Assembly: GCF_037975215.1 (NCBI RefSeq)
Contig: NZ_CP150239.1
Location: forward strand, 3,262,001-3,326,000
Reading direction: 5' to 3'
DNA from: Solibacillus sp. FSL R5-0449
Lineage (GTDB): Bacteria; Bacillota; Bacilli; Bacillales_A; Planococcaceae
DNA: 64,000 bases
Shown here: in pieces, positions 43,441 through 46,281 of the stretch
Numbering within the stretch: the stretch's first letter is position 1
Layout: every line of letters starts with the position of its first letter
Notes under the pieces: model-generated
Told to the model about the DNA's origin: nothing
Database searches by the model: none
The model's input: the letters and a program-made list of their open reading frames with translations, nothing else
Position numbers and translations under genes: made by a program

Positions 43441-45558
43441 ATGAAACAGTTCGCAGCATTCATTACAAAATTCGCAAAACCGATTGTTCTACTATGGTGT
43501 GCACTTTTAGTTGTTCTAGCATTTTTTGCGCTTCAACTCCCTTCTAAACTGCAAGGGGATGGTTTTTTCTACGATGGCGACCACTCGTATGTAACGAACG
43601 AGCTATCGGATACATTCAATTTACCCGCAAAAACAATTTTTGTGCTGTTTGAAAATAAAACAGATGAAGAAATTTCTTCCGCCCTAGAAAGTTTAGAAAC
43701 AATAGAAGAGATTCAAACAATCACATCTCCCGTAGGTGTCGAAGAATTAAATAAAGACGGGTTTGCCTATGGAATGCTCGATTTTGATAATTCGGTGGAT
43801 GATTACTTCCCGATTATTGATGAGCTCCGTGAAAAACTCGGCGAAGACAACGGTATTTCCATTACAGGTGAACCGGTTATTTCAAAGGATATTAATGTCG
43901 CAAGTCAAAATGATTTAATTAAAGCGGAAACGATAGGTCTTCCGATTGCTTTAATCGTTTTACTGCTGGCTTTCGGTACAATCGTAGCTTCTTTACTGCC
44001 GATTTTAGTCGGCGGTGCGACAGTTGTCATTACACTTGGTCTATTGGCTCTTTTAGGCGACAGTGTGAACCTGTCGATTTTCGTATTAAATATCGTCCCA
44101 ATGCTCGGGCTGGCTTTAAGCATTGATTTTGCATTGCTCCTTATTAACCGGTACCGTGAAGAGCGCAATACCCAATCGATTGAGCAGTCTGTTCAAACAG
44201 CCATCCAAACAGCCGGACGTTCGATTATCTTCTCCGCACTTTGTGTCATGATCGGTCTTGGTGCTATGATCGTCATTGACGTGGAGATTTTTATGAACAT
44301 CGCGCTTGGCGGATCAATTGTCGTGTTGTTGGCTGTTTTAACAGGTATTACACTTTTACCGGCAACATTGATGCTTCTTGGTGACCGTTTAAATAAAGGC
44401 CGTGTTTTCCGAATAAAACCGACTGCCTCCCGCTGGCAGAAGTTCGCCGCCTTTGTTATGAAACGACCTGTCACAATTATTGTTGTGGCCATTATATTGC
44501 TATGTGTTGCAATGGTGCCGATCAAAGATATCGAGTTAACGATCCCTTCTACGGAATCATTGCCGGAATCCTATGAATCGCGCCAAACATTCGATACACT
44601 TGATGAACAATTCGGACTCGGCGACGATACACCGGTTTTCCTTCTGGCAGAAAATGAAGTTGCCGGTGATTGGGATACGACAGAAGGACGCGAAAAAATA
44701 TTCGATATCCAGCAACAGCTGTTGGATGACCCTCTTGTTGACCGGGTAACATCAATGTTTACTGTAGCCAATATTGAGTCTGTTGAAATGTGGGAAATGG
44801 CAAACAGCAACCCACAAGCACCCGGTGCACTGGATGAAGTAGCGGAAAACTTTATTCAGGAAGACAAAATGTATATGGTTGCTTATCTGCATGCAGACGG
44901 TTCTTCATTCGAAGCACAGGATTTCGTACGCGACTGGAGTGAAAAAGACTTAGGTGTCGATTTTGCATTGTCCGGTCAAGCGAAGTTCAATCAGGAAATT
45001 TTTGATGAAATTGCCGGTAAAGTACTCATTGCCGTTGCGATCATCATTGTCTCTACCTTCTTTATTTTAATGATTGCGTTCCGGTCGATTTTAATTCCGT
45101 TGAAAGCGATCTTAATGAACATCCTTGGTTTAGGTGCGACATTCGGTATCCTTGTCTACGTTTTCCAGTACGGCCACTTCGGTCTGGAAGCAACGACAAT
45201 TGTGCTGATTATTCCGGTGTTGACGTTCTGCTTAGTTTTCGGTTTGAGTATGGACTATGAAGTATTTTTAATTTCCCGTATTCAGGAAGAATATTTAAAA
45301 GGGGCAACAAATACGAAGGCTACAGTCGATGGGCTTGTTTCCACAAGTAAAATCATTACATCGGCAGCGCTTATTATGATCGTTATTACAGGCGCCTTCG
45401 CATTTACGGATGTTATGCCCGTGAAGCAAATCGGGGTCGGTATTGCGATCGCGATTGCCATTGATGCAACAATCATCCGGTTGATGCTCGTCCCAAGTTT
45501 CATGAAGCTGTTTGGCGACTGGAACTGGTGGCTGCCATTTAAGAAGAATACGAGATAG
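43441..45558 (+). CDS. MMPL/RND family membrane transporter (YdfJ-like)
   Basis: 705 aa, two repeats each of one helix, an extracellular domain and five helices. Conserved GLALSIDFALLLINRYREE in the first half and VFGLSMDYEVFLISRIQEEY in the second carry the acidic/tyrosine proton-relay residues of MMPL proteins. Members export lipids or hydrophobic compounds; the cargo here is unknown. ATG 43441 has AAAGAAAGGCGGTAATTT ahead. Single gene with terminator; the phased repeat array begins just downstream. Confidence 0.92.
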   Translation: MKQFAAFITKFAKPIVLLWCALLVVLAFFALQLPSKLQGDGFFYDGDHSYVTNELSDTFNLPAKTIFVLFENKTDEEISSALESLETIEEIQTITSPVGVEELNKDGFAYGMLDFDNSVDDYFPIIDELREKLGEDNGISITGEPVISKDINVASQNDLIKAETIGLPIALIVLLLAFGTIVASLLPILVGGATVVITLGLLALLGDSVNLSIFVLNIVPMLGLALSIDFALLLINRYREERNTQSIEQSVQTAIQTAGRSIIFSALCVMIGLGAMIVIDVEIFMNIALGGSIVVLLAVLTGITLLPATLMLLGDRLNKGRVFRIKPTASRWQKFAAFVMKRPVTIIVVAIILLCVAMVPIKDIELTIPSTESLPESYESRQTFDTLDEQFGLGDDTPVFLLAENEVAGDWDTTEGREKIFDIQQQLLDDPLVDRVTSMFTVANIESVEMWEMANSNPQAPGALDEVAENFIQEDKMYMVAYLHADGSSFEAQDFVRDWSEKDLGVDFALSGQAKFNQEIFDEIAGKVLIAVAIIIVSTFFILMIAFRSILIPLKAILMNILGLGATFGILVYVFQYGHFGLEATTIVLIIPVLTFCLVFGLSMDYEVFLISRIQEEYLKGATNTKATVDGLVSTSKIITSAALIMIVITGAFAFTDVMPVKQIGVGIAIAIAIDATIIRLMLVPSFMKLFGDWNWWLPFKKNTR

Positions 45559-45571
45559 TTGATTAGTAAAT

Positions 45572-45611
45572 AGTCGTCTGGCCTGTTTTATATGGGTTGG
45601 ACGGCTTTTTA
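45572..45611 (+). terminator. terminator after MMPL gene
   Basis: AGTCGTCTGGCC pairs with GGTTGGACGGCT (12 bp including four G-U pairs), followed by TTTTTAT. Confidence 0.82.
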
Positions 45612-45619
45612 TTTGGAAA

Positions 45620-46001
45620 TCTGGTGGAGTGCGGGAGCTGTTTAAGTTTATTAGAACAAATGCCGAGGTTATTAGAAGAAATCATGTGGTTATTAGAACT
45701 TTCGTTGCTTTTATTAGAAGACCGGGGGAAACGTATGCCGGTTAAGCTGCTTTTCCTTTTAATTTAGGCTGTCCGGGTTGGAGATTTTGATTTTATTAGA
45801 ACATTTTTAATTATATTAGAACAACTTGGTACGATATTAGCACATCTACCCTCGATATTAGAAGATCTCGAACACTTATTAGCACATTGGGCAAAGATAT
45901 TAGAAAATCGCAATTTTATTAGAACATTTTAAAATATATTAGAACATTTCACCTGTTTATTAGAAAACCACGCCCACCGCAACCACGCCCACTCCGCCAG
46001 A
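45620..46001. repeat. array of 13 TATTAG[AC]A units at 21-bp spacing, bracketed by inverted repeats
   Basis: Copies of TATTAG[AC]A start at 45649, 45670, 45691, 45712, 45794, 45814, 45835, 45856, 45877, 45898, 45917, 45937 and 45958. Steps are 21,21,21,82,20,21,21,21,21,19,20,21; the 82-bp step equals four periods, as if three units had decayed. TATTAG is invariant in all 13, and CA plus T often follows. The DNA between units is unrelated. TCTGGTGGAGTG (45620-45631) and CACTCCGCCAGA (45990-46001) form an inverted pair with one mismatch at the ends. It lies between two terminators of convergent genes. No gene runs through it. Likely a helically phased protein-binding array or a small intergenic element; function unknown. 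Confidence 0.85.
45966..45992. repeat. direct repeat AACCACGCCCAC, two copies 15 bp apart
   Basis: Copies at 45966-45977 and 45981-45992 in a sharply GC-rich, C-skewed patch at the right end of the phased array. It overlaps the right arm of the inverted repeat. Confidence 0.7.
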
Positions 46002-46009
46002 CCACAAAC

Positions 46010-46048
46010 AAAAAAAATCCCCCGCGCCACTACCGACGCAAGGGATTC
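46010..46048 (-). terminator. terminator after 75-aa membrane protein gene
   Basis: Minus-strand AATCCCttGCG / CGCggGGGATT stem followed by eight T. Confidence 0.88.
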
Positions 46049-46053
46049 CATAA

Positions 46054-46281
46054 CTAACCTAAATACAGCCGTTCCTCAAACGGAAACATAACTGAATTTA
46101 CAGCGCTCGATTCCTCATCACTTTTGTTCAACTCGATTTGCTTCGGGTCTTTAGGTTCCCACAACATGTAAAATGCTTGAATTGCAATGACAATAACTAT
46201 GGATGCTACTACAATTGTACCGACGATAATTTTGACCATTTTATTTCCGGACATTTCCTTCGATGAATTCTGTTGTGTCAT
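46054..46281 (-). CDS. small single-pass membrane protein of unknown function, 75 aa
   Basis: A short polar N-terminus, one hydrophobic helix (IIVGTIVVASIVIVIAIQAF), then an acidic outer tail rich in Glu, Ser and Lys. GAGGGAATTGGAGA precedes ATG 46281. It begins 20 bp after the 155-aa gene, so the two form an operon. Family not recognised. Confidence 0.72.
   Translation of the reverse strand: MTQQNSSKEMSGNKMVKIIVGTIVVASIVIVIAIQAFYMLWEPKDPKQIELNKSDEESSAVNSVMFPFEERLYLG

Follow-up and report, generated by a model that had tools for sequence, protein, structure and literature searches.

Polar, helically phased arrays of an eight-base word, mostly behind terminators, as putative protein-binding sites in Solibacillus

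The window, by which we mean the whole stretch of 64,000 nucleotides that was analysed, contains an array of short direct words between two convergent genes. The upstream ORF (705 aa, 43441–45558, + strand), which we take to be an MMPL/RND-type transporter, is followed by a terminator-like hairpin (45572–45606, +), and the convergent downstream ORF (75 aa, 46054–46281, −) has a terminator-like hairpin of its own (46014–46049, −). Between these opposed hairpins and the ORF ends at 45558 and 46054, there are 13 exact TATTAG words (45649–45965, +), all 13 of which read TATTAGAA or TATTAGCA. The word-to-word steps are 21, 21, 21, 82, 20, 21, 21, 21, 21, 19, 20, and 21 bp. An earlier, sequence-only reading of this DNA had described 13 TATTAG units with steps of 19–21 bp and one 82-bp gap, placed between two terminators, and both our recount and the hairpins on either side confirmed this description. 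The first word block (45649–45719, +) has TATTAGAA at 45649, 45670, 45691, and 45712. The gap separating the word blocks (45720–45793, +) measures 82 bp from word to word and is 72 bp at the same locus in the genome G008. The second word block (45794–45965, +) has nine words, at 45794, 45814, 45835, 45856, 45877, 45898 (the anchor word), 45917, 45937, and 45958, with the 19-20-21 steps at its end. Both strands of the window together have 21 matches to TATTAGMA, 13 of which are accounted for by the array; random sequence had been proposed as the comparison, and 100 shuffled windows gave a mean of 8.5 and a maximum of 17.

The same reading held that the block was bounded by terminal inverted repeats. 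The two arms, TCTGGTGGAGTG (45620–45631, +) and CACTCCGCCAGA (45990–46001, +), do pair at 11 of 12 positions, but they lie beyond the homologous unit, whose ends in the window are at about 45645 and 45968, and they were not conserved at the orthologous loci compared across the genus. The 5′ flanks paired no better with their own 3′ flanks than with those of other loci in three genomes (p = 0.44, 0.33, and 0.36); in the source genome, the mean score was 12.6 for own flanks and 12.6 for those of other loci (p = 0.44). The 47 bases 5′ of the first word were G/T-rich and C-poor (C 0.12–0.13), and the bases after the last word were C/A-rich and G-poor (G 0.15–0.16), in G000, G007, and G008. Because a GT-rich 5′ flank and a CA-rich 3′ flank produce inverted repeats by chance, the arms were rejected as ends of the element.

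The window array belongs to a dispersed repeat family. The source genome, a single contig of 3.58 Mb, has 351 pairs of the form TATTAGNA-(10 to 15 bases)-TATTAGNA and 2 of the reversed form, a result that answers the earlier question of whether other such arrays exist in the same genome. A three-word signature (with 19- and 20-bp steps, at most two mismatches) was found at 53 places, and its control at 0. The family comprises about 50 elements with a unit of ~180 bp or ~322 bp and sharp ends. In an all-against-all comparison of the source-genome copies, the short unit reached from about −107/−111 to +70 around the anchor word and the long unit from about −250/−255 (some −277) to +70. When these pairwise homology limits were transferred to the window, the long unit (~322 bp) spanned 45645–45968 (+), with the first word block as its extra part; the short unit (~180 bp), which is found alone at many other loci, spans 45791–45968 (+). 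In the common layout, four words are separated by about 81 bp from nine others, whose last steps are 19, 20, and then 20 or 21 bp, and many copies have the nine-word part alone or miss some words. Within the 81–82-bp gap, degenerate words were not found at the phased offsets, and the best mean match (3.9/8; overall 3.2) lay off them. The sequence-only reading had called the DNA between words unrelated, which is how it looks inside a single array, but corresponding slots of different arrays are homologous, which makes this a repeat family and not a set of bare words. Some loci of the source genome have several units in a row: at L035 (313.5–314.3 kb), an M20-type peptidase gene is followed by three anchor words at intervals of about 236 bp, and at L051 (1078.2–1078.9 kb), recA is followed by two long units 345 bp apart. 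The genome G005 has three anchors spaced 367 bp (2538984–2539764).

The word is far better conserved than its surroundings. Across 65 pairs of orthologues involving G007 or G008, its eight positions were conserved at 0.994, 0.975, 0.996, 0.999, 0.952, 0.996, 0.963, and 0.935, and spacer positions 12–16 at 0.67–0.70. The first six values presuppose an exact word in one of the species, so the safer comparison is between those free of this condition: 0.963 and 0.935 for the last two word positions and 0.87–0.91 at positions −2, −1, and 9. T0, T2, T3, and G5 were conserved at 0.98–1.00 in each of eight core slots among 138 copies from three genomes (134–138 words per slot, at most three mismatches). 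The consensus of the word is TATTAGAA, in which T.TT.G is nearly invariant, and an imperfect dyad, TTnTT..AAnAA, can be read by eye in the consensus of the extended site TTATTAGAAcAA. The arrays are also strongly polar: 1,820 words from 152 arrays run forward and 6 are inverted, counts that are not independent because the copies share descent.

The distribution of the arrays is patchy. By the 705-aa protein encoded next to the window array, the closest named relatives are Solibacillus faecavium (90%) and S. merdavium (89%), and these two were the only ones with at least three clustered words among the matches listed (80 named loci). Among 16 genomes of the genus Solibacillus, eight carried 51, 46, 18, 54, 19, 45, 41, and 24 copies of the signature (at most one mismatch), the other eight carried none, and the reversed control was zero in all 16. 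The array-rich eight form one clade with full support in a tree of the neighbouring gene, which does not include G010. Three genomes of related species (G001, G015, and G013) have a few plain 21-bp arrays, with 9, 9, and 8 triples. Related genomes had been named as a place to look, and among 261 genomes of the family, triples were found in 11 of the genus Solibacillus and in 2 of 25 of a second genus (18 and 65 triples); three further genomes had one triple each, which is the control level. In a class-level sample of 398 genomes, which leaves the array-rich relatives outside, the source genome was the sole match. The second genus has a layout of its own, 21, 21, 21, and 40 bp repeated (103-bp period) with up to 25 words (L312–L327, in G260 and G250), and several of these arrays seem to be co-located in the two genomes. 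A plain 21-bp array stands in a divergent gap in G001 (L075:2346–2458), G015, and G013, with six words in the first two and four in G013, next to an ORF that is presumably an ArsR-like regulator. A phage origin was rejected, the five viral-contig matches looking by eye like coding or low-complexity repeats. The repeat was not described in the excerpts of open-licence papers among the matches listed.

The position of the arrays relative to genes was assigned by simple ORF calls. Among 49 source-genome arrays, 21 lay between two genes co-directional with the element, 9 between two genes running the opposite way, 16 in convergent gaps, and 2 in divergent gaps, and 1 was undecided; the convergent placement that the earlier reading noted is therefore true at the window but not general, since only 16 of the 49 arrays have it. 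Where a sense upstream gene ended within 260 bp (37 arrays), the median distance from the stop codon to the first word was 75 bp. A scan without a shuffled control found a terminator-like structure before the first word for 31 of these 37 genes and at 23 of 25 convergent downstream genes. Judged against the window's own gene gaps of at least 60 bp (28 co-directional, 6 convergent, and 4 divergent), convergent gaps look enriched for arrays; the shortage of arrays in divergent gaps was not significant (p = 0.11). In the second genus, 15 of 16 arrays had at least one flanking ORF ending towards them, some of them several hundred bases off. Ten upstream genes were scanned, and nine had Pfam matches of unrelated functions (RecA, enolase, thiolase, and amino-acid permease among them), by which a regulon of one function was rejected.

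The strongest regularity concerns the turn of the helix. The word steps are not uniform (19, 20, and 21 bp). Among 123 word-to-word gaps of at least 44 bp in three genomes (orthologues counted apart), 111 fell into clusters about one turn apart, at 50, 58–60, 70–73, 79–85, 90–93, and 100–103 bp, with none at 74–78, 86–89, and 94–99 bp. The 12 off-cluster gaps were 45, 45, 48, 63, and 67 bp, plus seven single values from 106 to 133 bp. When orthologous gaps were compared, 33 of 48 differed by 0–1 bp and the other 15 by 9, 10, 10, 11, 11, 14, 20, 21, 21, 21, 22, 32, 32, 45, and 56 bp. Changes of 2–8 bp were absent; those of 14, 45, and 56 bp fit whole turns poorly. Against uniform sizes of 4 to 56 bp, the whole-turn fit gave p = 0.0002, and p = 0.001 when each locus contributed a single change (n = 11). 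Word pairs were best fitted by a common period of 10.26 bp in the source genome (bootstrap 10.23–10.30, an interval too narrow owing to the shared descent of copies), 10.30 bp in G008, and 10.29 bp in the second genus, which has its own layout and yet an equal period value. The helical phasing proposed from the window alone is thus borne out, both by the clustering of long gaps and by orthologous gaps that shift mostly by whole turns.

Arguments for selection on helical phase usually come from single promoters. The helical turn matters for double-stranded DNA, so the phase argues for a function at the DNA level, and selection on it favours such a role. Reasoning from sequence comparison, we believe with a probability of roughly 60% that these are polar, helically phased binding arrays for a putative sequence-specific DNA-binding protein, mostly behind terminators. 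A site of protein assembly was one of the suggestions of the sequence-only reading, and it is also our preferred reading.

Its other suggestion was a small non-autonomous mobile element. A selfish, MITE-like dispersed repeat would spread through a transposase acting in trans or through recombination and be tolerated behind terminators, and the words would be recognition sites of the mobilising enzyme. The sharp homology limits, the tandem copies at some loci, and the near copies L061 and L068, which are 1.1 Mb apart and 86.6% identical over 336 bp, are consistent with this. So is the L061 site, where the unit is present in G000, G003, and G005 and is missing in G008. However, this single site, emptied or never filled, is not a clean insertion: in G008, a small convergent ORF runs through intact (by eye), and in G007 and G012 the site is occupied by about 2.4 kb of different DNA. 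It was also the one site compared for a target-site duplication, and G008 differs from the filled sites by replacement. At L061 and its orthologues in G003 and G005, the unit seems to replace the tail of the small convergent ORF, and the upstream terminator differs.

Most copies, moreover, are stable in position. A flank-matched element was found for 42 of 52 source-genome anchors in G007 and for 39 of 52 in G008, so the elements are mostly old and fixed, and most sites are common to several species; yet words and gap phase were kept after insertion. All eight array-rich genomes have the array at the window locus, in G012 in rearranged form, and in the gaps read at this locus in G001, G002, G009, G011, G013, G014, and G015, no word array was visible. 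One source-genome array lies behind an enolase gene (Pfam), and one G001 array also lies behind an ORF that we take to be enolase. The unit is without terminal inverted repeats, and because the words all run one way, its two ends are not mirror images. The mobile-element suggestion therefore stands as regards dispersal, sharp ends, and at least one variable site, but not as regards a family that is mostly old and fixed. Site gain also occurs, so copying may explain part of the pattern; as an account of the whole, the selfish repeat is unlikely.

Quite improbable, in our judgement, is that the arrays are BIME-like wrapping sites for gyrase or another topoisomerase, which would relax supercoils at the ends of transcription units. 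To our knowledge, gyrase is universal, but eight of the 16 genus genomes have no signature copies. The location behind terminators and between convergent genes agrees with such sites, and E. coli gyrase is described, in the excerpts of PMC6379681, as having a motif with phased G/C variation and as enriched downstream of highly transcribed operons. In the arrays, however, the alternation of G/C between word and spacer, as judged from composition bins and the unit consensus, seems to recur every two turns and not every turn, and the nearly invariant bases point to base-specific reading.

The words might instead act in read-through transcripts, through an RNA-binding protein, decay, or termination. 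Co-directional source-genome arrays do show a bias of 21 sense to 9 antisense (p = 0.043), but the second genus has no such bias (4 vs 7), and helical phase has no reason in single-stranded RNA. Rfam gave 0 matches at the gathering score in the window, the window copy folds only weakly (z = −1.6 on both strands), and RNA structure was rejected on these two results; we consider an RNA-level element very improbable. A remnant of a protein-coding coiled coil, in which the 21-bp step would be seven codons, can practically be dismissed: L-L-E heptads can be read by eye in one frame, whose third codon positions coincide with the less conserved positions of the word (1, 4, and 7), but the 19-, 20-, and 40-bp steps break that frame, and the fifth base of the middle slot changed from A to T 59 times and from A to G 2 times, so that Leu mostly gave way to Phe and hardly ever to its synonymous codon TTG.

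Returning to the binding arrays, we speculate that one unit of the putative protein would sit on each word, perhaps as a dimer because of the imperfect dyad in the extended site. Neighbouring units could contact each other head to tail on one DNA face and thus form a filament or wrap the DNA; the mean register, ~10.3 bp per turn and so under 10.5, is one that left-handed toroidal wrapping would favour. In the excerpts of PMC5418058, sequence periods below 10.5 bp are linked to left-handed toroidal coiling, and a left-handed wrap is argued in the same way for the E. coli tyrT region, whose period is ~10.2 bp. A position outside transcribed stretches would protect the complex from being cleared by polymerase, and it could then separate transcription units as a topological boundary or serve as an anchor between them; it is the placement behind terminators that suggests this role. 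We hold it possible, though with more doubt than confidence, that a lineage-specific protein forms a polar, one-face nucleoprotein, possibly a left-handed wrap, over hundreds of almost identical words at about 50 intergenic boundary sites and acts as a chromosomal organiser, with phase as the selected trait. Equally tentative, and joined to that picture, is the idea that two lineages have reached ~10.3 bp per turn through different layouts. The orthologous loci, whose length changes are filtered by the helix turn, are a natural experiment on nucleoprotein geometry, and the uneven occurrence, with 8 of 16 genomes array-rich in Solibacillus and arrays in 2 of 25 genomes of the second genus, offers natural comparisons with and without arrays. 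If a protein that binds the word were found, the arrays would become a test system for inter-operon complexes, supercoiling, and insulation in Gram-positive bacteria.

In plasmid iteron and centromere-type arrays, a single protein occupies successive direct repeats, each about two helical turns long, and the phased array resembles them in this step. In contrast, they are single plasmid loci with a long conserved repeat, whereas the present family has about 50 chromosomal loci, an 8-bp word, and free spacers; a plasmid-type initiator or partition protein was absent among the 10 upstream genes scanned. The sequence-only reading had also mentioned partition or condensin-like loading, and nothing was found that links the array to either. 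REP/BIME elements, interspersed repeats known to bind proteins, likewise have dozens of non-coding intergenic copies adjoining gene ends and form composite arrays (excerpts of PMC2817692). The repeat unit of REPs is a palindrome, and BIMEs contain REPs in alternating orientation, according to the same excerpts, whereas the phased words are short, in register, and nearly all in one direction; their 12-bp dyad is short and imperfect, and no inverted pair was reported in the window block. BIMEs and gyrase sites are nevertheless the nearest functional parallels. H-NS-type nucleation sites, as in the proV and tyrT regions, are also helically phased sites that seed a cooperative nucleoprotein, but they are AT-rich and few per region, and a strict polar word array is not described in the excerpts of PMC5418058. 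MITEs, RUP, and BOX share with the phased unit a small, dispersed, non-coding nature, definite ends, and some site gain. Unlike MITEs, the phased unit is without terminal inverted repeats, has a polar interior, is mostly fixed, and keeps its words after insertion.

A placement linked to replication was rejected, as no rule fitted all genomes when positions were compared by eye. By the same inspection, the arrays of G008 look sparse near the terminus, and those of the source genome do not. The GC skew of the fetched stretches switches sign near 1.6–1.8 Mb. In the source genome, the signature places were more numerous on the replichore at 0–1.75 Mb than on the other half.
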